A DNA stretch of 64,000 nucleotides, from positions 6,746,501 through 6,810,500 of the forward strand of contig JAYKKT010000041.1 in the NCBI GenBank assembly GCA_036023115.1. The letters are read 5' to 3'. Below the pieces are notes generated by a model. That model ran no database searches. It saw only the letters and a list, made by a program, of their open reading frames with translations, and was not told the DNA's origin. The stretch is from Brasenia schreberi (Eukaryota > Streptophyta > Magnoliopsida > Nymphaeales > Cabombaceae). The position numbers and the translations under genes were made by a program. This document shows, piece after piece, positions 3,438 to 29,265 of the stretch. Positions within the stretch are counted from its first letter, which is position 1, and each line of letters begins with the position of its first letter.

Positions 3438-4934
3438 ATGGTGAGGAGCAGAAGAGAATCGGAGGACGAGGCAGGTCCGCCCCACCAACCTGAAACAGAC
3501 GAGTTGCTGACACAGATTTTGCAAAGGCTTGACTCTTTGCAAACCACTCAAACAAAGCTTCAACAAAACCAGAATTTGATGAAGCAAAGCCAAGCTCAAT
3601 TGGCCGTGCAGGTGGCGAAGTTGCAGAAGCAACCCATGCATTCAGACACTGAAGCAGAGGTTCAACTTCAAACTCTAGTTTCTCCCGTTGACATGCGTGA
3701 TACGGCACGCGATCTTAACCTTTCTTGCTCAAAAATCAAAGTCCCCGAACCAACACCCTTTGGAGGTGTTCGAGATAGGAAATCATTGGAGAATTTCCTA
3801 TGGGATTTAGAGAGATACCTGAGTGTATCCCAAGTAGCCGATCATAGTAGGGTGATAGTAGCTACTTTATTTTTGAGATATGATGCAAAGGTTTGGTGGC
3901 GCACGCGAGAGGACGCAGCCGCCAGTGGTGGTGCCACTCTTCCCTTGACTTGGGAAGAATTTCGCTTTGAACTCTGGAAGTAATTCACGCCGACGAACAA
4001 TATTCATCGGACGAGAGAACTCCTCTCGAAACTCAAGTGCACAGGTACTATACATGAGTATGTGCAACATTTCAGCTCATTACTTTTAGAAGTTCAGGAC
4101 ATGACCGAAGTAGATAAGTTGTTTTACTTCGAGCAGGCATTACAGCCCTGGGTCCAAGTGAAACTTAGGCGAAGATGTCCTTTGACCATCACTGAAGCTA
4201 TTTCTGTTGTGGAGACTTTTGTAGACCTCCGATCTATAAAGAGTGAGAATAATCGGAAGAAAAAAGATAAGAAATCAGGATCAGGAAAAAGTAAAACTAA
4301 GAGATGGAATAAAAAGAAAAAGGGATCAACGGTGAACTCAAAAGAAGGATCGAGTGGGGTCAAAGGCAAAAAGATGCCACATAAAGAAGCCAAGACTCAA
4401 GGCACATGTTTTATATGCCAAGGTCCTCATCTGATGAGATTTTGCCCCAAGAAGGCAAAAATGGCAGCCTTGATCACCGATGAAGAAACGACAGGCTCTA
4501 GCACTAGCACCGGCGCCCAAGCCGCGTCTTTCCAGCTCTTAGGTGCAGCTTGTGTGCGGGATGAACCGCGTCATAGCCTGATATTCGTTGAGGCACAGAT
4601 AGGTGACACTGCAGTACGAGCACTGACTGACACCGGTGCCTCCCATTCGATTATCTCTATGACTCTAGCCACACAGTGGGGTTTGAGGCTAGAGCAGTCA
4701 GAACAGCGATTGAAGATAGTGAATACGAATGCTTCTAGAGTTGCTGGTATAGCAAGAGCTTGCTGTATCCAAGTTGGGTGTTGGAACAATATTTTAGATT
4801 TTATAGTCAGCACAATGGATGATTTTGGAGTTGTGCTTGGCTGTGATTTCTTTCGTGCAGCTAGCTTGATGGCTGCACCACACCTTAGAAGATTGGTGTG
4901 CGTGGATCCCACACAACCTGGATTCGTACCTTAG
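3438..4934 (+). pseudogene. gag: Chromovirus gag and protease, one internal stop
   Basis: Starts at an ATG in good context (CACCATGG). The N-terminal part has a Gln-rich coiled-coil-like stretch, followed by the capsid (retrotrans_gag) region with WWRTRE and LPLTWEEF. A TAA at 3981-3983 interrupts the frame at a position where relatives usually have Gln, and the same frame then continues to 4934. Near 4410 there is a zinc knuckle CFICQGPHLMRFC (C-x2-C-x3-H-x4-C), preceded by a Lys-rich tract, which would bind RNA. The protease domain has ALTDTGASHSIIS, so the catalytic Asp-Thr-Gly is present. The frame ends in TAG at 4932-4934, before reverse transcriptase. The product would form the virus-like particle core; this copy cannot make it full length. 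Confidence 0.92.
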
Positions 4935-7867
4935 TGTGATCTAGGTAAGGCTCCTAGTCTTTTGACATGCGGAACAATTTACTTATCTGCGATGCAACTC
5001 AAAACCGGTCTTCATAAGGGAGATTCCACATTACTTGCGGTTTTGAGGGAAGATGAGATGGATAGTGGAGATTAGAGGGTTCCACCTGAGATTGATCAAG
5101 TGTTGCTCACCTTCCAGGATACGATGCCAACCAAACTCCCTAAAAGTTTGCCACCTAGGCGGGGTACTGACCATGAGATTGTGTTAGAACCAGGGGCAAG
5201 AGTGCCATCCCGAGAAACTTATACGATGAGTCCTCAGGAGTTGGAGGAGCTCAGGAAATAGTTGGGGGAGCTCTTGGAAGCTGAGATGATACAACCATCG
5301 AAGTCACCTTTTGGTTCGCTGGTACTATTTGAGAAGAAGTCTGGTGGTTCTCTACGGATGTGCATCGATTATCGAGCACTTAACAAGATAGCGGTAAAGG
5401 ACCGTTACCCATCCCATTAGTAGCCGACCTTTTTGATCGACTCAGAGTAGCGAGGTGGTTCATGAAATTGGACCTTCGATCGGGCTATTGGTAGGTGAGG
5501 ATAGCACCTGGGGATGAGGCCAAGACGGCCATGGTGACACGGTACGGAGCATATGAGTTTCTGGTGATACCTTTCGGGCTCACAAATGCTCTAGCGACCT
5601 TCTATAGGCTGATGAACGAAGTATTGGCAGGTTATATCGATGAATTTGTGGTTGTATACCTGGATGATATTGTGATCTACAGTTAGAGCTTGGAGAAGCA
5701 CGTCCGACATCTCACATTAGTTTTTGAGAGACTTAGATCACACTCTCTCTATGTGAAGAGAGAGAAATGCATATTTCCTAGGAACACCATCACTTTTCTT
5801 GGGTATATTATTGGCGGAGGTGAGATCCGCATGGACCCCAAGAAAGTCCACGCTATTCAGGGGTGGGAAACTCCTAGAGACATTGGTGAGATACAGAGTT
5901 TCCTTGGGCTAGCGAACTATTATCGAAAATTCATTCGAGATTTTTCGAAGATCGCAACACCATTGACTAAATTGTTGAAGAAAGGGAGAACTTGGGAGTG
6001 GACACCCAAGTGCGTAGAGTCCTTTAAGGCCCTTAAAGCCTTGGTTTGTCAGGAACCAGTACTACGTCTCCCAGATTTCAGTAGACCCTTTGAAGTTCAT
6101 ACGGATGCGAGTGACCGAGCACTCGGAGGTGTTCTAACATAGGATGGGTATCCTATAGTTTTCGAGAGCAGAAAGCTTAAGGATGTGAAGACTCGGTATC
6201 CCATGCACGAGAAGGAATTGCTGATAGTCATATATTGCCTTCAGATCTGGAGTTTATCTGCTTAGATCCCACTTTTCTGTTCTGACTGATAATGTGGCGA
6301 ACACATTCTTTAAAACCCAAAAGAAGTTCAACATGCGACAGGCGCATTGGCTTGAGACTCTAGAGGAGTACGATTTCGATTGGATATATAGGCCAGGTAA
6401 GGAAAATGCAGTGGCTGATGCATTAAGTCGAAAGAGGGTTGAAACTCTGTGTGTCATTACCAAGATACGTGGGGAGATGATTGATGGAGTAAGGCAGGTA
6501 ATTGATCAGGATACTTTGTACATGCATATTGTATCTCAAGTAAAATCTGCTGTAACTGATAGATATGAGATCAGAGATGGCTTGGTATGGACCAAGAATC
6601 ATTGGTTATTTATACCTGAAGATGGAGATTTGAGGACATTGATGCGCGAATTATATAATGCAGAGTATGCAGGACATCCAGGGATAGAGCATACCGTTAC
6701 CCTTTTATCTCAGAGATATTACTGGCCCCGAATGGCTCGCGACCTAGCTGATTATATCTGGATGTGTCCTGCCTGTCAGTAGGATAAAGTGGGGCGATAA
6801 CGACCAGCTGGGTTACTCCAGCCTCTTTCGATACCAGAGAGACCGTGGAAATCTCTTTCCATGGATTTTATATCAGGATTGCCTAGAGTAGTCGACTTTG
6901 AGATGATACTGGTAGTTGTGGATCGGTTCTCAAAGTATGATGTCTTTATACCTGCACCGCGAGAATGCAATGCAAAAGCGATAGCTCGTCTTTTCTTTAA
7001 AAATGTAGTGAAACATTTTGGCATCCCGGAGAAGATTGTCAATGATTATGACGCTCGCTTCATGAGTCGGTTTTGGATCGAGTTATTTAGATTGATGGGA
7101 ACACGTCTCCTATTCTCATCATCACAGTATCCACAAACCGATGGTCAAATAGAGAGACTCAACACGATGCTAGAGGAGTATCTACGCCACTATGTCTCTA
7201 CTAGTCAGAAGAACTGGGTGTTTCTTCTGGAGGTGGCGCAGTATAGTTACAACTCTCACAAAAGCTCAGTCACCGGGAAGAGTCCCTTTGAGCTTACGTT
7301 GGGTTGGCAGCCGCTCAGACCCTTAGAGCTTGTATAAGGAAATGGGACAGGAATTATCCTGCAGCATTGCATGAGTTACGTGATAGGCAAACCATGTACA
7401 AGGAGGCGAAGACTTCGCTCGAGAGAGCAGGAGCTCGGATGATCAGGTAGGCGAACATGCATCGACGTGATGTTGAGTTTGAGGTTGGAGATGAGGTTTG
7501 GCTTCGGATACTTGAGTATATCTGAAATCAGGTTTACAAGGACAGTCATATGGGACTGAAGCCGAAGTACGATGGACCGTTCAGGGTGATACAAAAAAAG
7601 TACTTCGAAGATCCATGGAGGCTTGAACGCAGACCACCACCCTTGGTTAGACAAGATATTCCAACAGTCGAGGCGTTGATCGCTCACAGAGTAGATGGAG
7701 CGAGACCACGACGGCAGACCCAATATCTTGTACGGTGGACAGGTAGAAGCGCTGACGACGACTCATGGGTGCCATGCATGCAACTTTGGCAATATGATCA
7801 GATGCTTCGTGATTATCATGCGGCCTCGGGGATGAGTTCGAACTTCGTTGGGGGAGAATTGTCATAG
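4935..7867 (+). pseudogene. pol: Chromovirus pol: RT, RNase H, integrase, chromodomain (decayed)
   Basis: Reverse transcriptase starts near 5280 with CIDYRALNK and has the active-site box [10 protein letters not shown] at about 5655-5686. RNase H begins near 6085 (HTDASDRALGG). Integrase has an H/C zinc region ending CPACQ at 6782, then a core with MDFISGLP (about 6861), DARFMSRFW and a distal Glu near IERLNTMLEEY. The C-terminus (about 7650-7840) is a chromodomain with QYLVRWTGRSADDDSW, which in this group directs integration to particular chromatin. The frame is broken by TAG at 5073, 5259, 5492, 5684, 6140 and 6780, TAA near 6798, a one-base loss near 5406, a shift near 6245 and another after 7337. 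Most stops replace a codon that is usually Gln (CAG or CAA). Non-functional. Confidence 0.92.
7850..7859 (+). promoter_or_regulatory. Polypurine tract
   Basis: GGGGGAGAAT lies immediately before the 3' LTR, at the place where plus-strand cDNA priming occurs in this class of element. Confidence 0.8.
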
Positions 7868-10976: not shown

Positions 10977-13832
10977 TTACTCTGTTATGCCTTTAGTTAA
11001 GGAGTCTGCCAACATATCATTTGTTGGCATGTATGAGATGGATATTTCCTTTCTCATAACCATATCATGAACATAGTGGTATTTCACCATTATATGCTTG
11101 CTTTTTGAGCAATCAGCTCCACTCTTGATAAGAGTAATTGCTGCATTGTTATCACAGTAAATGATAATCGGCTCGTCGGTTATTTCCAACTTCAAATCAC
11201 GTATGAAGCATCTTATCCAGACAACACTCGTTGCAGCCATACAACAAGCTACATACTCAGCTTCTTGTATATGCAATGCTACACAACCCTGTTTCTTGCA
11301 TGCCCAAGAAACACCACCACCTCCAAATAAGAATATTTGATGAGAGGTTGATTTGCTATCATCTTTGCTCCCAGCAAAGTTAGCATCTAAGTATCCTACC
11401 ACTTTAAGTTCATCTACTTAAAAACATAGTTTCAAGTCTCTTGTTTCTTTCAGATATCTTAAAATCCTTTTTACAACTATCCAGTACTGCCATCCAGGAT
11501 TACTTTGATATCTACTTACAAGACAAACAACAAAGCTGATATCAGGTCTTGTACATAACATAGCATACATCAAGCTACCCACAACTTGTGCAAAAAGAAC
11601 ATTAGGCTTATCGTCTCTTTCACCGGGACAATCAACCTTACTAATTTTGACCCCTTTTGTAACAGGTGTATCAGCAGACTTCCATTCACCCATTTTGAAC
11701 TTCTTCAGGATATAGTCAATATATCTCTCCTGACTCAGGCATAAAAGTCTAGATTCTCTATCTCAAGAGATCTTTATACCCAGGATATAGGATGCTTCCC
11801 CCATATCCTTCATTTCGAACTTGGTGTTTAACCATGACTTGGTTTTGACAATCATCTCGTTGTCATTTCCAGTCAACAATATGTCATCTACATATGACGA
11901 TAGGATGACAAAGTGGCTCCCACTATTCCAGACATATACACAATGATCAAGTTTATTAGCCACATACCTAAGTTCTATAATGGCATTTTGAAAAGTCAAT
12001 ACCATTGGTGAGGTGATTGTTTGAGGTTGTATATGATTTCATCTAAATCTCTGTTTAAAAATACTATTTTTACATCTAATTGATGTAAGTCCAAATCATA
12101 GTATGCAGATATTGCCAAGATTTTTCATATGGATACAAATTTCGCAATTGGAGAATATGCCTCAACATAATCTATCATCTGTTTTTGTGAAAAATCCTTT
12201 GCAATCAACCTTTCTTAAAACTTATCGATTCTACCATCGACCTTGTATTTCTTTTTCAGAACCCATTTATAGCATATGACTTTCCTTTCTTTTGGCAAAT
12301 CAGTCAATTCTCAGACTTGGTTTTTTTCAATGGATTCAATTTTTTCATCCATGGCTTTGCCCCAGTCTGATGCTTTCGATGAGTTTATAGCTTGCTGATA
12401 AGTCAAGTTATCAGTCAACTCATCTAAATCCACTGAATTACACACTTTTTCTGCAAAATAAGTGTGTTTAAGTAGGACAAAATGGTCATTGGCCTTTTGT
12501 GTTCACTTAAGGTTTCAATTGTTTCAGGAAGATCTTCTATGGGCTCAAAAGATGATTGATCTAGGTCTACTAGATCATCAACACATTCATCATTATTTTC
12601 CAAGATGTCATTCTTAGAATTGTCTAAAAATTCAACATCTCTACTTTCAATTAGTCTGTGGTCCTTATGATAAAACTGATATCCTTTCGGATATCTAATG
12701 AATATACATCTTAAGGACCTACTATCTAGCTTATCTCTAGACTGATCAAGGATCTTTACGTGTGCAACAGATCCCAACCTCCTAAGATGACCTAGGTTGG
12801 GTTTTCTTCCAAACCACATCTCATATGGTGTAGTGAATACAACTTTACACAGTACTCTATTGAGTATGTAAACTGTTGTACTTACTGCTTCTCCCCAAAA
12901 TACCCTTGGTAGAGAAGCATCGATCAACATTTATCTTGTCATATTCAACAAGGTTCTGTTATATCTCTCAACTACACCATTTTGTTGAGGTGTTCTGGGT
13001 ATTGTATTTTGCTTTGCAATTCCAAAGTCTTTATATAATTCAAGAAATTCTACCAAGGTATATTCACCACCTCTATCTGATCTTAAGACTTTGATTGAAT
13101 GCCCTAATTGGTTTTTCACTTCTTGCTTATATTCTTTAAAAGCATTCACTGTCTCAGATTTATGTGTCAAAAGATATAAATACATATATCTAGAGTAATT
13201 ATCGATAAAGGTTGTAAAATAATCATTTCCATGATGTGACTTTATTCTAAAAGGTCCACATAAATCTGTGTGAATAATCTCCAACAAGGTTGTTGCCCTT
13301 GTTGATTCTTTGGAAAAAACTTTCTTTGTCATTTTTTTTTTATACAAGCTTCACACTTGTTGAAAGTATTTTCCACAAATCTAGGCAATAAGTCAAAATT
13401 AGATAGTTTCCTAAACTTTTCCAGGATTATATGCCCAAGGCGTTTATTCCACATATTCACATCAACAGTAAAGGCACACTCAATATAAGCAGAAGAAGTA
13501 CCAATTTCATTATCACAGAATTTAAACAGTCCATGCTCTACATCGAATTCTTCAAAGAATAATATTCTCCAATGTTTTCCCACAGTTACCTTGCTAGGAA
13601 TAAACTTGACCTCAAAACCTTTCTTTACTAAGGCAGGGACCGAGATCAAATTGCGCCTTATAGTTGACACAATTAATACATCAGTTAATACTATCGGTTT
13701 GTCTTGTACATAAATCCTAAATGACCTAGTGCCCAAAACATCCGAGAATGTATTGTTACTCATGTAGACTCGATGTTCATCTGGTTTGTATTCCTTGAAG
13801 TCCATTACCCCTTTCTTACTCATGTAGACTCT
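10977..13832 (-). pseudogene. pol: Copia pol: protease remnant, integrase, RT, RNase H
   Basis: Read on the minus strand. 13823-13329 has the protease-linked and gag-pre-integrase region (VYMSNNTFSDVLG, NLISVPALVKKGF) and the integrase zinc region, where WNKRLGH replaces the usual first His with Asn. 13347-12424 is integrase: HTDLCGPF, SDRGGEY and PQQNGVVERYNRT give Asp-Asp-Glu, followed by the copia-type tail with FWGEAV and GRKPNLGHLRRLG. Reverse transcriptase spans about 12420-11418 and includes SYVDDILLTGND. RNase H is at 11402-10977, with GYLDANFAGS, EAEYVA and ending SLTKGI. Several stops and shifts separate the parts, with the RT N-terminus the most damaged. The protease active site (DSG) and the gag zinc knuckle are absent. 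Confidence 0.92.
13756..13832 (-). repeat. 16-bp direct repeat at a deletion junction
   Basis: TTACTCATGTAGACTC occurs at about 13756-13771 and again at 13817-13832, 61 bp apart. Related elements have a CCHC zinc knuckle and the DSG protease site between gag and the MDFKEY segment, and both are missing here. The repeat therefore probably marks the edge of the lost or rearranged piece. Confidence 0.6.
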
Positions 13833-15322: not shown

Positions 15323-15704
15323 TAATATCTATTTGTTGCCAGAATCCAACATTGCATTTGTCCTCCGTCGAGCCTTCTAAGTACGCCTACAACGGAATAA
15401 AGGTATGTGAAATTTAGTTTTTGAGGTTTTCATGTAGTGGAGTTTTCTAGAAAAAGTTTTTTCACTATATAAATTCTATTTGCGCTGCTCTGTATTTATA
15501 GAGCAGTGCGTGCTCCTTCTTTCCTGGTTATTCTATTGGGCTTCCCACATCCAGAGCGTTCTTATTCGGACTGTTATTGAAATTCTCAATAACGGTCCGG
15601 TTGTTATGGCAACCGTATCTTCAATCCGTGATTCAGGTAATGGATTGGATGGCCAGTCCAGACGTTACCTGTGCTGGGTTGCCGAGAATGACCACAACTT
15701 AACA
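15323..15704 (-). repeat. 5' LTR of copia element
   Basis: 382-bp direct copy of 10305-10686. On the minus strand it begins TGTTAAGTTGTGG. The inner end has lost the canonical CA: the + strand border reads TAATAT where the other LTR has TGATGT, consistent with a G to A change. Confidence 0.9.
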
Positions 15705-16127
15705 TTTTTTAGGTTTCTTGTAGTGACTGTTTTAATGTGTAAAACAAGTTATATTTCCATCGGATTTCACATTTTTATCAAGAAAACATGGTGACTAAAA
15801 GCATCATTTTAAATTGATCAAGGTATTTGGATGGATAGTCGATGTATGTAGGATCGTTTAGGTTTGAGGGGGTGGAGGGAGGGCATAGCGGTGTTTAGCC
15901 AAGTACCGGTGAAGTTTCTGCAACAGTTAAACCTTTGTAAGGCATGTTGCCAAATTTCAGATCGTATCCAAATCGCTAGAATTACTTGTCACGGGAATAA
16001 ATTAGATGAACAAGTGAGCCTGGCCAATGGTTTAACTACACAAAGCAGGAAACTTATAGTCCGATTAGTTGCAAAATATTGTTCTTGTTACAGGAGAGTG
16101 TATGCAGTCAAAATGCTAGTTAGACTC
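15705..16127. other. Spacer between copia element and solo LTR
   Basis: No gene recognised. Because the solo LTR inserted just after the LEAFY stop codon, this spacer should be the original 3' flank or 3' untranslated region of the LEAFY pseudogene. I see nothing in it that proves this. The last five bases (GACTC, 16123-16127) form the target duplication of the solo LTR. Confidence 0.5.
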
Positions 16128-16984
16128 TGTCACGAAATATTTCCAAAAATCTCAGAATTTTACCTCGTGATAGTAGAACAACGACGCACGTTGCTCTCAG
16201 CTCTCTTACCTGCGCAGAACTGCATCTGTGCGCGTCTTTGGACCTGGCTCAGTTGCAGTTCATCAACATACGGTGCGGAAACTCTCTTCATCTCGCGTCG
16301 TTCTATCTCACTCAAGAGATGGATCGGCTTATGATGCTCACACTCGGTGATGAGACAGGAAATGCTCGCTTATGAAGAAGAACACTTTATTGAACCAGAA
16401 AATCTGATTACAGAAACACACGGACTGACCTGCTGACGAAGGAGGCTTAATGGGCACAGCTACGGCTGAATTGGCCTCAGTTCACTCTGAACTAGGCTGA
16501 GGAGGTTCTCTCCTTTCAAGACACCCTCTCTCACTCGGGTTGAGCCCCTGCTCACCTAAGCAAATCACGCCTAACCTCAAACCCGTTTCACTCTTCCTCA
16601 CTTCATGTCTCAACTCATCCCACCCGCCCTCTATTTATAGAGTTCGGCTTGCTGGATCTCAAAATCATCTAGTGATATCCCATTAGATATCCCACTAGGT
16701 TAGACCCAACCCGATTTGGTTAAGCTAACTAAACCTAGCTATGTGACCCGACTCAACTAGGCTCACTAAACACACTTGACCTTACAAGACCCGAGCCCAC
16801 TAACATCACTCGGTTTGTACAGGACAATACACTTATTTACAATGACTCATGACTCATGACTCATGCACCCATACATGATGCCAAGTGCCGAAGGGATGCT
16901 CCACAAGTGTCAGTGCGGCGCTCCTCATGCGTGCGGCATGGGTGCATGGCACGTGTGTATGGTGCTAGCGTCGCGTTCGTTACA
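16128..16984 (-). mobile_element. Solo LTR, gypsy family related to the element in LEAFY
   Basis: 857 bp with ends TGTAACGAACG...CGTGACA when read on the minus strand. The half nearest its start matches the LTRs at 18108-18986 and 22064-22955 in reverse orientation, including CTCTATTTATAGAG and the block with TCTCTCACTCGGGTTGAG. The other half is more divergent. It is flanked by GACTC (16123-16127) and AACTC (16985-16989), a 4/5 target duplication, and no internal region is present. This is the product of LTR-LTR recombination that removed the element body. It lies 12 bp past the stop codon of the LEAFY pseudogene. Confidence 0.85.
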
Positions 16985-16996
16985 AACTCTGACAAG

Positions 16997-17358
16997 TTAG
17001 ACTTGGCGTGCGGCATGTGGCGCTACAGCCAAAGATGAACAGGTAGTGCGATGCTGGTGGTAGAGCTGGCGCAGCTTCGTAGGCACGTACCAGATGCACA
17101 GCTTCTCGTTGGAGTTGAACATGGCATCAATGTCCCAGGCACGATGTGCTGCCATGGCCACCAGCGGCTGGTAGGAAGCCTGCCCCCATGCCCCAACATT
17201 CTGGCCCCGTTCCTTAAATACGCGCCGCAGGTGGTCTGATGCCGCCTCGTCCAAGCAGTGCAGTGCAGTGCATAACAATGAACATAGTGACGCATCTTGG
17301 GCTTGTTGATGTAACTCGCGCCCATGCTCTTGGCATACCTGAATACCTGGTTCGTGAC
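16997..17358 (-). pseudogene. LFY: LEAFY exon 3 (DNA-binding domain), frameshifted
   Basis: Translation from 17358 gives [20 protein letters not shown], then [12 protein letters not shown]. The frame then breaks at a GCAGT triplet repeat (17255-17269, + strand), where one extra 5-bp unit is present. In the shifted frame it continues [21 protein letters not shown], ...AWDIDAMFN... and [13 protein letters not shown], and stops at 16997-16999. The core is highly conserved, but several normally constant residues differ: KLRQLYHQ instead of KLRQLCHL, and WGQASY instead of WRQACY. The C-terminal tail after KLRQL is about 20 residues, shorter than in most angiosperms. The acceptor just upstream reads GCGCTG/GTCACG, lacking the AG. 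Confidence 0.95.
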
Positions 17359-18018
17359 CAGCGCCAATGCAAATAATAATGAGATTTCCTTTATGTTTCT
17401 TTTTTGACAGTGTGTTAATCGTGCCATTATAAGTAAAAGAAAAAGTCTAAACTACACTAGTAATTGGTTAATATGCTTCTGTTGATTATTTTGAGATGAG
17501 AAGACAAAGAATATCAGTGCAAGCTTTGCTCTAAACTGACCATGGTTGTCTGTCAGATCGTTTGGTACAAAGGCTGGATGCGCTATGCCGCCCCGCATCA
17601 GGGAGAATCTTGGTAAGTCCTGGCCCCAAAAAGCATCCAATATCCATAATGGTCAATCGCCGGATTCATGTCAACTATTAATACCTGGTCCAACTAATTT
17701 TTTGTTAAGTACTTTCTGAATCAATTTGATCTTACATGTGTTTAGCTAATCGGGTTGCATTTTGCTAGTCAATAACCTAATCAGCTTATTATATTCAATC
17801 ATGGAGTACCATTTCGTTCATACATAAAAATATGCAAACACCATTAGTGTTATGACAATTCATCTCGCATAAATATACGGGAAGAGAAAAGGGAATCGAA
17901 CTTCCGTTTAGGCCAACCAAACCCAACGGAATAAGATGGCCAAATATTGAATGAAGAAATCATAACCCCAGACTTTGGCAGAGCCATAGAGGCGGTCAAG
18001 CAAATAAATAGTGCATAC
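17359..18018 (-). other. LEAFY intron 2, acceptor lost
   Basis: 660 bp between exon 2 and exon 3. The donor AAG/GTATGC at 18019/18018 is intact. The 3' end reads TTGGCGCTG before GTCACG, so the expected CAG is CTG (17359-17361). No other AG lies within the last 25 bases. Short open frames within it (for example 17452-17640) show no family match. Confidence 0.85.
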
Positions 18019-18107
18019 CTTGGTGGGACACTTCTCTCCCCGTTCCTTCGCGGTGTTTTGGACCTGGATCAGGAAGACCCGGCAGTCCTCGTAAAGATGG
18101 AAGAGGT
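18019..18107 (-). pseudogene. LFY: LEAFY exon 2, 3' part
   Basis: On the minus strand the 89 bases from the element border encode [20 protein letters not shown] and then ERGEKCPTK, followed by the GTATGC donor. This is the exact continuation of the sequence that stops at 22956 on the other side of the retrotransposon. The first five bases (ACCTC) are one copy of the target duplication and preserve the Tyr-Leu codons TAC CTC. Confidence 0.97.
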
Positions 18108-18986
18108 TGTGATGAACGCGATGCTAGCGCCCCGCGCATGCACCACGTGCACGTGCCATGCACCCGCACCGCACGCATGAGGAGCGCGCACACCGACACT
18201 GGTGGAGCATCTCTTCGGCACATAGGAGTCGTGTCATTGTACATACATGTATTGTGAGTCCTTGTTCATACTTGAGTTGTGTTGCTCAAGTCTTGTAAGG
18301 TCGAGTGGGTCATGTAATGTCTAGAGTGTCTAGGTGAGCCGGGTCACTAGACTAGACATGGGTTAGCCTAACTAAGTAAGGTTAGTGCCTAACCTAGGGT
18401 GGTAACCAAGGGGGAATATTCCTTGGAATATCCCTTGGTCAGGTATGGGTTAGTCCAGCCAGCCGAACTCTATAAATAGAGAGCGGATGGGCTGTTGTGA
18501 GGTATGAAGTGAAGTTGAGTGGAACGGAGTGAGTGTTAGGCGTGAAGTGCTTAGGTGAGCAGGGGCTCAACCCGAGTGAGAGAGGGTGTCTTGAAAGGAG
18601 AGAACCTCCTCAGCCTGGTTCAGAGTGAACCGAGGCCAGTTCAGTCTAGCCGTGTCCATTAACTTCCTTTGTCAAGCAGGTCTGGTAGTGTTCAGTGCTT
18701 GTAATCTGATTACCGTAAAATAAAGATGATGAGTGCTTTGGTTTCGTAAGCTAGTGAGGGTGATCCTTCTCCTACGTGTGATATTAGCATAAAGCCGAGA
18801 GTGTTTGAGTGAACCTCATCGATGTCAACCGGAGGAGATTTCCGCAGCGGAAGAACGGAAGTTGTTTTACCGTGAAGAACAGTAAACAGACGGTGTTCTG
18901 CGCTAGACTTGGGCTGAGGTGAAGAAGGAGTCTTCATCTGCCATCACAGGTACTTAAATTCGAATTTCGGATTTTAATCTGTGACA
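18108..18986 (+). repeat. 5' LTR of element in LEAFY
   Basis: 879 bp. It contains a single TATA box in CTCTATAAATAGAG near 18467-18481 and an AATAAA-like signal near 18718-18723. It matches 22064-22955 closely over its last 800 bases. Confidence 0.93.
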
Positions 18987-18989
18987 ATT

Positions 18990-19001
18990 TGGTATCAGAG
19001 C
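18990..19001 (+). promoter_or_regulatory. Primer binding site (tRNA-iMet)
   Basis: TGGTATCAGAGC, a perfect initiator-Met primer site, lies three bases after the 5' LTR. Confidence 0.9.
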
Positions 19002-20097
19002 TTGCAAAGCTCGAATCAAAGCATGTTAAATCAGATTAAAGAAGAAACTACGCCGGAAAAACGAATCAGGTGACAGAAAAGTTTTCTGCCGGAAAATTTC
19101 TGTCCGTTTTCTGCAAAAGAGTGCAGATCTGGTTCGAATTAGCTATTGCGATTGAATTCTGAGTGTAAGAAGGTCAATCGTACTCGGATCTAGTTGAAGG
19201 AACTAGATCAAAAGCTAATCGTAACATCTGAAGGTAGATCAGGCCGTTCTTGAGCAAGAACTGGCCGGAAAAATAGTTTACCGGTGAAACTGTTTTGACG
19301 ATCAGAACTCAAGGTTGAGACGACTGGTTTTGAGCCAAAGGGGTTCGTCTAATCAGATCTAGTAAGGATTCATCAAGTACTGATGAGATCAATCAACAAT
19401 TGAAGTTGATCGGAACAGATCTGGCGAATTCAGTTAACGCCTTCCTCAAGTTGACGGAAAACAGAATTTCAGATGAAAATTCTATCCGGTTCAGAACAGG
19501 AATGGTCACGTTCAGTTTTGATTCAGTTGAACTGACTTTAAAGTTTTAAGAATTGTATTAGATCAGTTCTTAATACAACTGCAGCAGATTGAATTGGTGA
19601 ATTGCTGAAAAAAGTTAAAACAGAACAGCAAACGCAGTCTGAATTTCAGTGAAGTCTGAATTGTTTAATGCTTGATCGGACTAACAAAAGTGTTTGTGAG
19701 TAAGGATAAAGTTATTACAGGTTCGGATTACAGAGATTGGTGACCGGAGAGAAGACATTTCGAACGGAAATCGGCGGGAAAACAGTTGCAGCAGAAAACC
19801 GCTGAACCGTATAGAAAAACCAATTCTGGTTTTTCCAGCCTGTTCTCTGTTGGTTTCGGACGGGTTACAGGTCTCCAAATACATCTAAATTTCATACACA
19901 TGTATTATGTTGTACGTTTGTTATTTAAGTAGTTTTTTTTCGTTAGTATCTAATCTATGTTTCTTCATAATTCGGGCTGAATATGGTGTAAAATTCAGCT
20001 GTTCAGAAGTCTGTTTTTCTGCACAACTTCAGTTCGGGTATGTGTTGTGAGTGTATTTGCTGTCCGAGTGGTATGTAATAATACAGGTACATTCTCG
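19002..20097 (+). other. Long untranslated leader of element in LEAFY
   Basis: About 1.1 kb between the primer site and gag with no coding capacity. It is rich in GAAAA/CCGGAAAA-type motifs. Similar leaders precede gag in the chromovirus at 1093-9424. Confidence 0.7.
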
Positions 20098-21617
20098 ATG
20101 GGTAAAAGCAGAGTTGGCTCTGTGGAAGACGAAGCCATGGTCAGCAGATCTAGCTTCGAAATATTCATGAACCAGATGCTGCAGAGAATAGATTCACTTC
20201 AGCTGCAGTTGCAGATGTAGAAGGAAAGTTTTGAGCAGCAGCTGGGAGAACTGAATACCAGGCAGCGGCATGCTGAGGCCGTGGACACAGAGGTCCGGGG
20301 TCCTCGGGAGAGTCATGTTCAGCTTGCATCCACATCCACCGATTCAGTTCGTACACCCACGAACACATATAAGGTAAAATTTCCTGAACCTAAGCCGTTT
20401 GAGGGTGGATGAGACCGAAAGATTGTCTAGAATTTTGTATGGGACTTGGAGTGTTATTTGGAGGCATCGCGTGTGTCGGGCGAGGAAAAGGTTACCGTGG
20501 CAACCTTATTCCTTATGCCAAGTTATGGTGGCGCACACGAGTAAAAGCATGGCAAGATGGAGGTAGGCGAGTGCCGAACACTTGGAATGATTTCAAAACT
20601 GAGATTTTTCAGCAATTCACTCTGCCTAATACGTTCTGCCGAACTAGAGAGCGATTGAAACAACTAAAGCAAACTGGGAGTCTTCACGATTATGTGAAGG
20701 AGTTTAGCTCGTTATTGCTCGAGATTGAGGGTATGACCGAGCAAGATAAGCTTTTCCACTTCGAGGATGGGTTACAACCATGGGCGCAAGTGGAGTTGCG
20801 TCCGCGAAATCCGCAGGAGGTCATGGAGGCCATGACCATGGTTGAGTCCTTTATGGAGTTGAGGACGCCTAGGGAAGAGAAGAGTCCTAGGGAAACGCCA
20901 TCGAAGGGAGTTGGGAAAAGTAAGAACGGGAAAATACCCGAGCGAAGGGAAGAGGCATCCTCTTCCAAGGGCAAGTCAGGAGGCAATGGAGTGGGGTCGT
21001 GCTACATTTGCAACGGGCTACATCACATGCGAGATTGTCCCAAGAAGGCTAAGTTAGCCGCTTTGGGGGTTAAGGAGCAAATCAGGGTCGAGGATGCGAC
21101 CGAGGCAACGGAGGATGAGTTGATCTAGGTTGCCCAGTTCCAGCTTCTTAACACTATGAGTTGTGAGGGACCAACACGAGCCCTTAACTTTGTGAAAGTT
21201 CACATGGGTAAACACACTATCTGGGTTTTGGTAGATTTAGGGGTGAGCCATTCGCTTATTTCGCCGCAGATTGCCAAGACGATAGGGTTGAAGGTGACGC
21301 TGTCTACGATACAACTGAAGCTAGTAAATGCAGCCGTGTCTTCGCTTGAGGGAATGGCACTGGGGTGTAGGCTGAAAGTTGGGCGGTAGAAAGGAGTGTT
21401 GAGCTTAGCAGTAGCAGCCATCGACGAGTATTCGATGACACTAGGGTGCGATTTCTTGAGAATTGCACAGGCGATGGTGGCTCCTCACCTTCGGGGTTTG
21501 GTTATCATGAACAAGGGACAAAATGGGTTTGTACCGTGTGTGGATCCAGGTAAGGCACCAGCAGTATTGACGTGCATTGCATACTACCTGACGGACGAGA
21601 GGTCGGTGGTAGGGTAG
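20098..21617 (+). pseudogene. gag: gag and protease remnant of element in LEAFY
   Basis: Starts at ATG 20098 (MGKSRVGSVEDEAMV). Stops are TAG at 20218, TGA at 20410 and TAG at 20428, with a frameshift before about 20510. From there 20510-21128 is open and carries the capsid region (LWWRTRVKAW, NDFKTEIFQQF) and the zinc knuckle CYICNGLHHMRDC. A further stop at 21126-21128 precedes a protease-like segment whose active site reads VLVDLGVSHSLIS: the catalytic Asp-Thr-Gly has become Asp-Leu-Gly. The protease tail (LGCDFLRIAQ ... GFVPCVDPGKAPAVLTC) ends at 21617. Nothing of reverse transcriptase follows. Confidence 0.88.
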
Positions 21618-22063
21618 TTTGTTAGTGGTGGGGGGTCGTCCCATAGGGGCAGGGCCGGGCGCCAGGTCAGGTCAGTACAGAGGCAGGCGCACCAAGAAAA
21701 TCCTCTCGGATAGGGAGGTTTTTCATAGGTGTCAGGTCATAGTGGTGGGGCGCCAGCGCTAGCGCCAGTGCACCGTGGCAGAGGACTAGCACTAGGGTCA
21801 AGCGAGAGACTAGCGCTAGGACATAGTGGACCCGCGCTAGGGCGGGGCAGTACCGTCGAGAGTTCGGTGGGCAGCACGAGAGATGCCAGAGAGGTTTTCC
21901 AGAGGGGAAACGCGCCAGGAAGGCAGGGAGCAAGCCGGAGGCAGGACGGAGCGGAAGCGTAGTGGACCGAGAGAGTGAGTCGTGCTTTGCTGGGGGAGCG
22001 GCAAAGGAGTGGCGCACACTCACCCGACCTCGAGGGCGAGGTCATGCTTAGTCGAGGGAGAGT
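21618..22063 (+). other. GC-rich segment replacing pol
   Basis: 446 bp of much higher GC than its surroundings, with repeated GCGCTAG and CTAGCGC words near 21755-21840. It sits where the 3-kb pol should be. The last 40 bases, ending GTCGAGGGAGAGT just before the LTR, look like the native pol 3' end and polypurine tract. The rest has no recognised homology and could be filler DNA or captured sequence. Confidence 0.6.
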
Positions 22064-22955
22064 TGTGACGAACGCGACGCTAGCACGTGCCATGCGCACG
22101 CGCCATGCACACACGCCGCACGCATGATGAGCACATGCACCGACACTGGTGGAGCATCTCTTCGACACATAGGAGTCGTGTCATTGTACATACATGTAGT
22201 GTGAGTCCTTGTACATACTTGAGTTGTGTTGCTCAAGTCTTGTAAGGTCGAGTGGGTCATGTAATGTCTAGAGTGTCTAGGTGAGCCGGGTCACTAGACT
22301 AGACATGGGTTAGCCTAACTAAGTAAGGTTAGTGCCTAACTTAGAGTGGTAACAAGGAGGAATATTCCTTGGAATATCCCTTGGTCATGTATGGGTTAGT
22401 CCAGCCAACCGAATACTCTATAAATAGAGAGTGGATGGGCTTATAAATAGAGAGTGGATGGGCTGTTGTGAGGTATGAAGTGAAGTTGAGTGGAACGGAG
22501 TGAGTGTTAGGCGTGAAGTGTTTAGGTAAGCAGGGGCTCAACCCGAGTGAGAGAGGGTGTCTTGAAAGGAGAGAACCTCCTCAGCCTGGTTCAGAGTGAA
22601 CCGAGGCCAGTTCAGTCTAGCCGTGTCCATTAACTTCCTTTGTCAAGCTGGTCCGGTAGTGTTCAGTGCTTGTAATCTGATTATCGTGAAATAAAGATGA
22701 TGAGTGCTTTGGTTTCGTAAGCTAGTGAGGTGATCCTTCTCCTACGTGTGATATTAGCATAAAGCCGAGAGTGTTTGAGTGAACCTCATCGATGTCAACC
22801 GGAGGAGACTTCCGCAGCGGAAGAACGGAAGTTGTTTTACCGTGAAGAACAGTAAACATACGGTGTTCTGCGCTAGACTTGGGCTGAGGTGAAGAAGGAG
22901 TCTTCATCTGCGGCACAGGTACTTAAATTCGAATTTCGGATTTTAATCTGTGACA
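22064..22955 (+). repeat. 3' LTR of element in LEAFY
   Basis: 892 bp, direct repeat of 18108-18986. It differs mainly by a 23-bp tandem duplication covering the TATA box and by changes in the first 80 bases. Confidence 0.93.
22419..22464 (+). repeat. 23-bp tandem duplication with two TATA boxes
   Basis: Unit 22419-22441 is repeated exactly at 22442-22464, so TATAAATAGAGAG occurs twice. The 5' LTR has it once. Because reverse transcription makes both LTRs from one template, the duplication must be newer than the insertion. Confidence 0.9.
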
Positions 22956-23183
22956 GAGCTAATCCAGCCCGTTCTTCTTCCCTCGCGCAACTTCCCCCGG
23001 CTCCGTCACCACGAACAGGTCCTCACGTTGCCGATCTCCCGCTATCTTCACTCTAAACAACGCCAGCTCGCCTTGACGCCCTCTTCCGCCACTGGTTCTT
23101 CCCCTCCACCGCCATAGATTCCCAATCTCCTCCTCCGGCAACACCGCCCACCTTCTTCGCATGAACCGGCTCCTCGGACAACC
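22956..23183 (-). pseudogene. LFY: LEAFY exon 2, 5' part, with stop and frameshift
   Basis: The acceptor ACATATATAG/GG at 23184/23183 joins in phase to exon 1 (GAAG) to give QEG then [10 protein letters not shown]. This frame has a basic stretch ([15 protein letters not shown]) and then a TAG at 23053-23055. The conserved second half, [15 protein letters not shown] and [11 protein letters not shown], lies in another frame, so a one-base shift lies between about 23065 and 23035. The sequence ends at the target duplication, where TAC (Tyr) has become TAG in this copy. Joined with 18107-18019 the exon is 312 bases, one base off the expected frame. Confidence 0.93.
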
Positions 23184-24122
23184 CTATATATGTACACCGG
23201 CCCAAACACGAAAAGTTCTCCAGCATGAACTAAATTCTCAGACACACAAAGAGTTGAAAGTGGACGGTTTACGTATCACTAGAACACGAGAAAATCACGT
23301 GGTATTCTGAGTCATCTTTCGAGAAGCTCGTTCAAGCGAAGGAATTAATATTTTACTTCTTAAAGTCTGAGCTTCTTAGTATCGAACATTTCGAGTATAC
23401 CCGGCAATGAAACGCATTAGACACCATTAAGGAGACGATGTCAAAGTGCACACCCCTATGCCATTGCCAAATTTTTGTTCAAATTGTAATCAAATTTTAG
23501 TTTACCACAGAAGTTCGGAAGAGATTTTGCAGTCACATAATTTGTCCAAAAAACAAGGATAAAGACCATGATTGTATGAGGTAGACAATAGAGACAATAG
23601 AAAACCGAACGTTTTTACCCAACGTCTCACCAATAGCTACATATTTTGTCATCACTATAAGAACAGTTTTAAATAATAAGTATACACGCATGACCTGATT
23701 CTTGTGAGCAACGTTAAAATTTGTATACATTAGGATCGAGTGGCAAAAAGAGCAGTTAGAAGCTATATATATTTAACACCTTGTACAACGTGCATCTGAC
23801 TCTAAGTAATACATCAAAAGATATTGTGCTGTGCGAGAGAAAGAGAGACAGAGAGACAGGGAGGAGATTGTGATTAAAACCGGACGTGCAGAACATGTTT
23901 TCGGCATGAAAGAGTGCAGGGTTGACGAATATAGCAAAACTGTGGACTGAGGAAATAACACTATACTTAATACAAGAAAGAGAAGGAGAAAATATAACGA
24001 GCACGACAATCAAGTTTCTCGTGCGCGTGGAATGTGAGTGTGTGTGTGTGTGACAGAGAGAGTGAGGGGGAGCGGGGGCGGAATAAGAGTGGTGATGGTA
24101 CAAAGATGATCCGTTTAATTAC
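23184..24122 (-). other. LEAFY intron 1
   Basis: 939 bp with intact GT (GAAG/GTAATT) and AG (TATATAG/GG) borders, phase 1. It contains a short GT/AG-rich microsatellite near 24027-24065. No other gene or element was recognised inside. Confidence 0.85.
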
Positions 24123-24594
24123 CTTCCTGAGAGAAGGCGTCGAGGAGGTTGGTAGAATCAGGGGAGGCAAGGAGGTGTCGACGGCGAGAAGCGTCATCGT
24201 CAAAGAGCCACCGGCGTTCTGACCTCACGGCTGCTTTGATGCCATACCTCTCCCAAACGAGGAGATCCCAGCGGAAAACGTCCACCAATGTTGTCATCAT
24301 CTCGTCCAGCTCTTCGTCCTTCATGTTAAGAAGAGTGTTGGCCGTGAATCCCATCTCTGCCATCTTCGCCAAAGTGAAGTAACGGATGCCACAGTTCTGG
24401 AAAAGGTCCTCCAGGCCACCCAATTCTTTCTTCCGGCAGTATGGTGGTGGATCTGGTGGCGCTTGCGGCGACGCACCGACAGCACTCACGTGACCAGTGG
24501 CCGACCCCGGTACGTCGTGGATGAGGAGTCGGCTTGAAGGGGGTGCACGAGTGTCCCACTTGAACAAAGCTGCTGAGAAAGCATCTGAGTCCAT
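24123..24594 (-). pseudogene. LFY: LEAFY exon 1 (SAM oligomerisation domain)
   Basis: 157 codons from an ATG at 24594-24592 (MDSDAFSAALFKWD, the family's conserved start) to the GTAATT donor. Residues 16-58 are a Pro-rich linker. Residues about 59-130 are the SAM-type domain, with GGLEDLFQNCGIRYFTLAK, MAEMGFTANTLLNMKDEEL and RYGIKAAVRSERR. This exon has no stop or frameshift. Residue 114 is Trp in LLVWERYG, where relatives have Gly (GGG to TGG is one change). Because this exon is open, a truncated N-domain protein could in principle be made if the gene is transcribed. Confidence 0.96.
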
Positions 24595-24720: not shown

Positions 24721-26417
24721 GAATACTTCTATAATTATGTCATAAATTTTCCCTCGCAGGTTGTTCCGATGGATGTATATGAATGATGGGATGCCGCAAT
24801 GAAAGGATGCCATCTCCTTTCTGTCTTTATTCCTATCAGGTCCCAGTTAAATTGTTTAAAGCACGAAATTCGGAGCACTTGAGCACTTTGAACACGAGAA
24901 ACGCAAGAACCTCAACCACAGCTAGAGGGGGAGGTCAGGTCACGTTGGATTACTTTCGACGAGTGGGTCATATTAAATCTCCACCCATCATATTAATCGG
25001 AACCAGATTGAAAAGAAAACGGCTTAACCGGACCTAGAGTTAGAGATGCTCCAGTTTGGCTCTAGTTCCACTTTTTATAAAACTGAAATTAGGACCAGTG
25101 GTTTAAAGCATGAGTTCCACCATTTTTCTATTTCTTTTGAAAATTTTATTTTTTGCTATACATTTTATGATTTGAAACAGTTTGGAACTGAATCCAGAAT
25201 AAAAGAACAGAACCTACCAATTCCTAGTTATGTTCTCACAACCAAAACCAACCGTATTTATCATGCTTATGCCAAACAAATAATTAATATCTTTTATTGT
25301 GATAAACAACTTACGAGAAAAAAATACTTTAATTTGCTACAAGTTCACGATTTTTACTTCAATAGCTTAAATTTTTCTTAATTTCGTTAGTACCTACGTT
25401 GTTGGCCATTAATCAAAGAGAGATCATTCATGTTATGTTGTTAACTTTGGTCAACTTAGACCCAACACCATGGGACTTGATACAATCCGTACCTCATAGT
25501 TCACATCTCTCTCTCTCTCTCTCATTATCTCTCAACATTTTGCATTCTCTCTTCTTTGTTCTTGCATTTCTTTATTCCTGCTCTCTCTACATTCTCCGTC
25601 CTCTCTCTCTTTCTCTTTTCCTCATGTAACATTGCAAGACCAACAAACACCGAAGGAAAAAGAAGATGTGGCGGCTTCTATATCACAATTCATTTGGCAT
25701 CAGTATCCAGTGGTCATCTTCTTCTTCTTCCGTTCTTCCTAACCATTGTATCACCAGTTAAAGAAGAGACATGACTTGATCATGATTACGTTGGGAGGTG
25801 TCATGGTTAGGCCACATGCTTTTCTTAAATATAGCATGGCCCGGTTGCCACACCTCAAACAAGATAATGTAGCCAGCTCATGTCTCCTTTTTCTACTTGT
25901 CGCAACTACACCTACTTTCTTGAGGTGATACAACCAGTCTGCATAACCTCCCCTTTATGTATGGATAGATACACCTAAAACATATCTTATATATCATCAT
26001 ATGTTATATCCATATATACACTTGTTACATATCAAGTGTCACATGTATAAACATGTATTATACATATATTATATATTATGAATATAATGTCAGATAAGTT
26101 ATATTGCTTATGTTGCATGCTCTGTTGTATTTTCACATATTTTCATGAAACGTTTCTTTTGAATTTTATAATTGCCATGGCTTATAAAGGTGACGATGTA
26201 GCATAGGTGTAATGTCTGGTACAAGACTTATATTGTTACTGCATCATCAAAATGACAAAATGTTTTTTGGCTAACATAGTAAACAACTTCATTAACACTA
26301 AAAGATAAACCATGCCAAGCCGTCACAAGCAAATCATCCTGCAATATTGTTTAACTTTGAGATAGTATGTAGTATGTTTCCTAGGTCGCAAAGATAATGT
26401 CAATTCTTTAGGATGTT
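24721..26417. other. Region upstream of LEAFY, no gene recognised
   Basis: AT-rich sequence with a CT microsatellite at about 25507-25540 and 25590-25625. The longest + frame (25046-25381, 111 codons) has no family motif. Nothing else was recognised. Confidence 0.45.
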
Positions 26418-28146: not shown

Positions 28147-29265
28147 CTAGTTACATGGCTTTTTCAAAACCAGATCCCTCACTTCAAAGTGGCGAGGTCT
28201 CATGTGTTTGCCATAGTGTCGGGCTATCCTTTGCCGGTATGCACGAGCATGGTCCATAGCAAGGAGTCGCCTCTCATCTAGCAAATCTAGTTCGGCCATC
28301 CTAGCATGCTGAAGCGTCTCTAGGGGGAGGCCGAGTGCAATGGATGTGTGGAATGAATGCAGTTGAGTATGAATGGGAAGAATGACATTTGTGCCATAGA
28401 CCAATTCGAATGGTGTGGCATTCGTGGGAGTTCGGATGGAAGTCCTATAAGCCCATAAGGCTTCATCCAGCTTCTCGTGCCACGTCCTACCCTTCTCTAA
28501 GGTTTTCTCAATTATACTAATGAGAGTCTTTTTGGTGGCTTCGGCTTGGCCGTTGCCTTGAGGGTAGTAGGGCGAAGAGAAGTGGTGAGTTATGCCATAC
28601 GTGTTGCACAACTTAACCATCCGCTCGTTCTTGAATGGGGTGCCATTATCAAACACAAGGTCTCATGAAACCCCAAATCGAGCCAGGATATTCCTCCGAA
28701 TGAAAGCCACCACATGTTGCCCCAGCATGTTGGTTAGGGAAATGGCTTCCACCCACTTGGAGAAATACTCCGTGGCTGCTAAAATGAATCGATGCCCATT
28801 CGAGGCTTTTGGAAATATTGGGCCTACGATGTCAAACGCCCACAAGGTAAATGGCCAGGGGATGACCACGGAATGCAATGCAGATGATGGGATATGAATG
28901 GCGTGTCCATGCACTTGACATGGATGACACTTCCTAACATGATCATGACAATCTTTTTTCAGGGTGGACCAAAAATAGCCGCCTCTAAGTATTTTCATTG
29001 CCATCATGTTGGCATTAACATGACCTCCACATTCTCCATCGTGGAACTCATGCATCACTATCCTAGCCTCCTCTAGATCGATACACCTAAGTAGGATGCC
29101 GGTAAAACTCTTTTTATATAAAACCCCACCTAGAATGGTGTATCGGGTCGAAATTTTACAGATGAATGCCTTATCTTTGGATGTGGTATCCTCGGCGAAT
29201 CCCCCATTTTCTAAAAATTGTTTTATGTCGTAAAACCAAGGTTTTTCAAGAAAACTGGGTTATTT
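28147..29265 (-). pseudogene. Ty3/gypsy integrase fragment (Tat-like)
   Basis: Minus-strand translation starts near 29265 with EKPWFYDIKQFLENGGF, typical of the RNase H to integrase linker in Tat-type gypsy elements. It continues LGGVLYKKS and a zinc region (HEFHDGECGGH ... CHPCQVHGH). The catalytic core has Asp in WAFDIVGP, Asp in FDNGTPF and Glu in NGQAEATKKT. A single TGA (CGA to TGA) at about 28664-28666 separates the two open parts. The C-terminus after LVLKKPCN is cut. Integrase would join element cDNA to host DNA. There is only light decay compared with the other gypsy remnant at 35350-37170. Confidence 0.88.

Follow-up and report, generated by a model that had tools for sequence, protein, structure and literature searches.

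Maize, soybean and Cucurbita, all recent polyploids, keep homoeologues of the flowering master gene LEAFY (LFY). Following polyploidy the gene is held to go back to one copy, possibly because of gene dosage; this is the account in the portion of PMC6588583 available to us, and the word 'pseudogen' is absent from the main text of that paper. Pear and apple carry the paralogues LFY1 and LFY2, and some intron-2 variants (LFY1int2-c) were suggested to be pseudogenes, as stated in the accessible part of PMC3182939. Here we describe the LFY locus in a window of 64,000 nucleotides (bases 6,746,501-6,810,500 of contig C41) from Brasenia schreberi (Nymphaeales, Cabombaceae). Like maize, soybean and Cucurbita, this plant has multiple LFY copies following a recent duplication of the genome, and like pear and apple it has duplicate LFY loci of that origin. 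Unlike the account available for the three polyploids, Brasenia shows one of three copies decaying with its exons still readable. The suspect copies of pear and apple, as far as the accessible part tells, were sequenced for intron 2 only, whereas here the gene can be seen in full together with its lesions. No description of an LFY pseudogene in Brasenia or other Nymphaeales was found among the top-ranked literature results, a scope mostly outside subscription papers, and 'leafy' does not occur in the main text of the paper that published the Brasenia genome (PMC10356934). The C41 copy is, with high confidence, an intron-bearing LFY pseudogene, one of three copies left by genome multiplication and dispensable given the other two.

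All three LFY exons are present on the minus strand at 16997-24594 (coordinates refer to the plus strand of the window), with conserved intron positions identical to those of the LFY copies on contigs C75 and C82. Lesions were judged against these two copies of the same genome, within a single assembly. Exon 1 (24123-24594) has an uninterrupted frame and an intact GT donor and encodes the SAM oligomerisation domain; it matched the N-terminal SAM_LFY domain of Pfam (PF01698, E=4.5e-40). The C-terminal C_LFY_FLO domain (PF17538) was found in four pieces in the window, split across frames, with the best match in exon 3 (E=5.8e-33). The LFY identity of the locus is not a chance match. Intron 1 (23184-24122) keeps its GT-AG borders and can be aligned with the corresponding intron in C75 and C82.

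Five disabling lesions follow downstream of exon 1, all in minus-strand reading. The 5' part of exon 2 (22956-23183), delimited by Pfam and by comparison of the copies, keeps its acceptor AG and contains a premature TAG at 23053-23055, where codon 201 is GAG in C75 and C82. One G was gained in the GGG run at 23038-23040, giving a +1 frameshift. Exon 2 is then interrupted by a 4,848-bp long terminal repeat (LTR) retrotransposon at 18108-22955 (plus strand), beyond which its 3' part (18019-18107) ends in an intact GT donor. The acceptor of intron 2 (17359-18018) is changed from AG to TG at 17360-17359, the context at 17364-17359 being GCGCTG in place of the GCGCAG of C75 and C82. Exon 3 (16997-17358), which encodes the DNA-binding domain, has gained 5 bases in a GCACT repeat at 17257-17271, and this is the second frameshift; the TAA stop codon stands at 16999-16997. 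An earlier reading of the letters alone (hereafter the original prediction) had named the three exons at conserved intron positions, the TAG, the frameshift and the retrotransposon in exon 2, the lost acceptor and the 5-bp duplication in exon 3, and every one of these was recovered in the comparison with C75 and C82.

Read from the ATG with intron 1 removed, the C41 gene runs into a stop after 200 codons. A message in which exons 1 and 2 are joined at their intact splice sites would therefore end after 200 amino acids, before the DNA-binding domain, and no working LFY is expected from C41. Loss of the acceptor, the second frameshift and the inserted element would each alone have the same effect. 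Introns and flanks are retained and the frame is destroyed while the sister copies are open, as in an unprocessed pseudogene. The 5' flank (24994-26417) and the 3' flank (15704-16127), both taken on the minus strand, are alignable to the flanks of the C75 and C82 copies. A scan of the 5' region for bacterial-type promoters was uninformative for a plant gene.

The exon-2 retrotransposon has LTRs at 18108-18986 (879 bp) and 22064-22955 (892 bp) with TG..CA ends. It is bordered by a 5-bp target-site duplication with one mismatch, GAGGT at 18103-18107 (plus strand) and GAGCT at 22956-22960, and the target site is present once each in C75 and C82. A Ty3-type gag open reading frame lies at 20409-21128 (PF03732, E=9.1e-14). 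No long pol-like frame was found in the element in a six-frame list of frames of at least 80 amino acids, in which a single 86-amino-acid frame follows gag. The two LTRs differ at 38 of 867 sites (K=0.0455), which places the insertion at 0.51 (0.37-0.67) of the age of the split between the copies when the LTR clock is set on the intron rate. If LTRs mutate faster than introns, as methylated repeats often do, 0.51 is an upper limit for the insertion. Twelve base pairs past the LFY stop codon stands a solo LTR (16128-16984, minus strand), flanked by its own 5-bp duplication (GACTC/AACTC). It differs from the LTRs of the exon-2 element by about 0.43-0.46 substitutions per site and belongs to a related but distant family.

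Both Pfam domains of LFY, C-terminal and N-terminal, were searched for across the whole assembly (1.055 Gb, 92 contigs), giving 11 and 6 first-look candidates, all of which were scored. Eight matches to the C-terminal domain and three to the N-terminal domain were obtained, all at three places, on C41, C75 and C82. The C75 and C82 copies encode uninterrupted proteins of 379 amino acids from exons of 472, 311 and 357 bp separated by GT-AG introns, and both are probably functional. The original prediction had suggested that the locus is a duplicated paralogue and that a functional LFY lies elsewhere, and had looked to a second locus; two were found, so the genome holds three copies, as expected of a recent polyploid. 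Its alternative, an unusual loss of LFY, is not needed as an explanation given two open copies, and nothing indicates that LFY function has been lost altogether.

In a protein tree of 21 rows the three copies formed one clade (100/99) adjoining LFY of Victoria cruziana (100/100), as suits the paralogy proposed in the original prediction. The Victoria protein, listed as intact, was the nearest to C75 among the matches listed (76% by BLAST over 99% of the query). Residues identical to it numbered 298 of 376 in C41, 309 of 376 in C75 and 307 of 377 in C82. The protein tree, synonymous divergence (Ks) and intron distance disagree on the branching order of the three copies. The tree paired C41 with C82 (97/74) on an internal branch of 0.0046; Ks was lowest for C75-C82 (0.099, against 0.143 for C41-C75 and 0.147 for C41-C82); intron distance was lowest for C41-C75 (0.0875, against 0.0934 for C41-C82 and 0.1054 for C75-C82).

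To account for these copies we propose that the genome was multiplied, probably by triplication or by two duplications, leaving three LFY copies in a Nymphaeales lineage, probably that of Cabombaceae. The other two copies would have made the C41 LFY dispensable, so that losses were tolerated. The C41 copy would then have taken the nonsense change, the two frameshifting length changes, the loss of the splice acceptor and the retrotransposon.

Exons, introns and both flanks are collinear among C41, C75 and C82, and the element insertions around each copy differ. C41 and C82 have a PPR-like stretch in common. Open frames near the C41 LFY match peptide transporter, MEI2-like, PPR, bHLH, LEA_2, ARF and Clp_N proteins. 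On C41, LFY has a MEI2-like match 63 kb away, and on C75 it has one 44 kb away in the same arrangement. Two observations detract from this shared neighbourhood: on C82 the MEI2-like match, 232 kb away, has the opposite side and strand, which an inversion would produce, and the genome holds 54 MEI2-like matches in scattered places. We regard the MEI2-like neighbourhood as supporting homoeology without being decisive. LFY, AML1 (MEI2-like) and ARF2 likewise lie close together on Arabidopsis chromosome 5. Shared introns, aligned flanks and the MEI2-like neighbour indicate that the dead copy arose by duplication of a block or of the whole genome and is not a retrocopy, a tandem duplicate or an allele. 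A retrocopy is ruled out by the presence of both introns, and a tandem duplicate by the location of the copies on three separate contigs.

The three copies are probably best explained by triplication of the whole genome or by two duplications close together. A segmental or single-gene duplication instead of polyploidy is improbable. In its favour, the contigs are tied only by LFY, its flanks, the PPR-like stretch of C41 and C82 and the MEI2-like gene. However, introns and both flanks were carried along, a MEI2-like neighbour lies 44-232 kb away on all three contigs, and the three blocks are about equally distant, as a triplication or close duplications would leave them. The published Brasenia schreberi assembly, as described in the available part of PMC10356934, comprises 1,170.4 Mb; its 36 pseudochromosomes and 74,699 genes also speak for polyploidy.

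Relaxation of constraint was sought in changes private to each copy. Besides the TAG, 21 amino-acid positions are changed in the C41 copy alone. Near-invariant positions were defined as the 199 of 379 with at least 95% invariance across the best 120 of 418 LFY proteins, a set to which all conservation counts below refer. Eleven of the 21 C41 replacements fall on such positions, the share expected of unconstrained change. In C75 and C82 together the figure is 5 of 19 (2 of 9 and 3 of 10), below the neutral share (p=0.036). Private coding and intron changes number 46 and 46 in C41 versus 45 and 119 in the other two copies (p=0.0004), and with the flanks added to the introns the counts are 46:102 versus 45:191 (p=0.009). 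Private nonsynonymous changes are likewise raised in C41, both against introns (p=0.0012) and against introns plus flanks (p=0.018).

Other results weigh against relaxed constraint on the C41 copy. The near-invariant contrast between copies, taken alone, is not significant (p=0.12). The ratio of nonsynonymous to synonymous divergence (Ka/Ks) is not raised, being 0.27 and 0.26 for the C41 pairs versus 0.25 for C75-C82, and the private nonsynonymous to synonymous counts are 24:22 in C41 versus 20:25 in the other two (p=0.53). Synonymous changes in C41 are also raised against introns (p=0.021), although not against introns plus flanks (p=0.14). The C41 flanks are fast too, with 25 private changes in the 3' flank versus 10 and 15 in the other copies, and 31 in the 5' flank versus 18 and 29. 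Evidence for relaxed selection, for which the original prediction had envisaged a dN/dS test, is thus divided: coding changes are in excess over introns, and Ka/Ks is not raised.

The unconstrained share of the C41 branch was estimated at 0.76 (5-95% range 0.35-1) by introns and at 0.11 (0-0.41) by synonymous sites, and it was not used because these yardsticks conflict. Dating the death of the gene by Ka/Ks was tried and was uninformative. The time of death is poorly fixed, and the order of the lesions is not given by the sequence. The dated record of decay foreseen in the original prediction is weak, since the yardsticks conflict and Ka/Ks is not raised. As a possible sign of methylation decay, an excess of C-to-T and G-to-A changes was considered; together these changes, counted among the private coding changes, made up 24 of 46 in C41, 8 of 22 in C75 and 11 of 23 in C82.

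Whether C41 still makes a retained product was also considered. A 200-amino-acid protein with the SAM domain only, which might for instance pair with the two intact LFY proteins in a dominant-negative manner, would be compatible with the uninterrupted exon 1 and the intact exon-1 donor and exon-2 acceptor. Private nonsynonymous changes fall on 8 of 362 sites in exon 1, 9 of 236 in exon 2 and 7 of 275 in exon 3, and mild constraint is compatible with these counts. Exon 1 nevertheless has Y68C, G114W, A125S and L154F at near-invariant positions. Its message would have a premature stop a long way from the end and would extend through the element or beyond it, and no published precedent for LFY SAM dominant negatives was found in a limited literature search, which yielded one unrelated paper. 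We hold such a product to be very unlikely.

Equally little credit is given to a working LFY at the C41 place, with the lesions as assembly errors or the state of one allele. The damage is of five different kinds, among them point changes and a bounded LTR insertion with its target duplication, and replacements occur across all exons; assembly errors would not create replacements and a 5-bp target-site duplication. The k-mer heterozygosity of Brasenia schreberi, estimated at 0.10% in the available part of PMC10356934, leaves little room for divergent alleles. That C41 is an allele or haplotig of C75 or C82, and not a third locus, is extremely improbable, for although the genome record has no stated ploidy or phasing, the copies occupy three places on three contigs, every pairwise intron distance is 0.0875-0.105, and the surrounding element insertions differ.

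The two open copies also have changes at near-invariant positions. C82 has W109G in the SAM domain (W in 118 of 120), and R305L (R in 114 of 120) and A316S (A in 118 of 120) in the DNA-binding domain; none of these derived residues at 109, 305 and 316 was seen in the best 120 of 418 LFY proteins. C75 has V216M (V in 120 of 120) and E297K (E in 115 of 120). The C82 copy may be losing function, and a further slide to one LFY copy is possible. We consider it rather unlikely that the plant is already partway back to one LFY, with C41 dead, C82 impaired and C75 alone carrying floral identity, and with the SAM-only frame of C41 either inert or making a last dominant-negative contribution to dosage.

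The case adds one more instance of a familiar process, the routine loss of a redundant gene once a genome has multiplied, and knowledge of LFY or of pseudogenes is unchanged by it. With two open LFY copies and one dead but readable, an early-diverging angiosperm order offers a gene at which the return to single copy can be traced: the first copy to go, the kind of damage it takes, and whether a second copy is already slipping.

Other retroelement remains were seen in the window. Gag-like and pol-like open frames of an LTR element, judged by eye, lie at 3438-7337, where the one frame compared with Pfam, 6861-7337, had no match. Fragments of a further retroelement lie on the minus strand at 12424-13823, of which 12424-12930 matches an SH3-like retroviral polymerase domain (PF25597, E=2.5e-20). 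An integrase-like fragment on the minus strand at 28147-29259 scored below the family cut-off (PF00665, E=0.00044); C75 has a stretch 82% identical to it.

Relics of matK were encountered outside the window. Nuclear contig C47 carries a decayed matK relic at 5129170-5130162 (minus strand) with 3 stops in 331 amino acids. It is 92% to the legume Ormosia among the matches listed and nests with Ormosia in a tree (100/98); of the 120 matches listed, a few are nameless, two bear the labels Arabidopsis and Fagonia, and all other named ones are legumes. The native relics of C70 and C77, combined into one query, are 94% to Cabomba furcata and 92% to Nymphaea and group with Cabomba (95/88); Brasenia and Cabomba are the two genera of Cabombaceae. 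In pairwise comparison the relics on C81 and C88 are 59% and 65% to Ormosia. The words Ormosia, Fabaceae and matK are absent from the text of the Brasenia mitogenome paper PMC11059650. The C47 relic suggests that plastid DNA of a legume is present in this Cabombaceae genome. Such DNA may have been transferred horizontally, possibly via the mitochondrion, or the stretch may be misjoined or a contaminant; the relic may deserve more attention than the LFY pseudogene.

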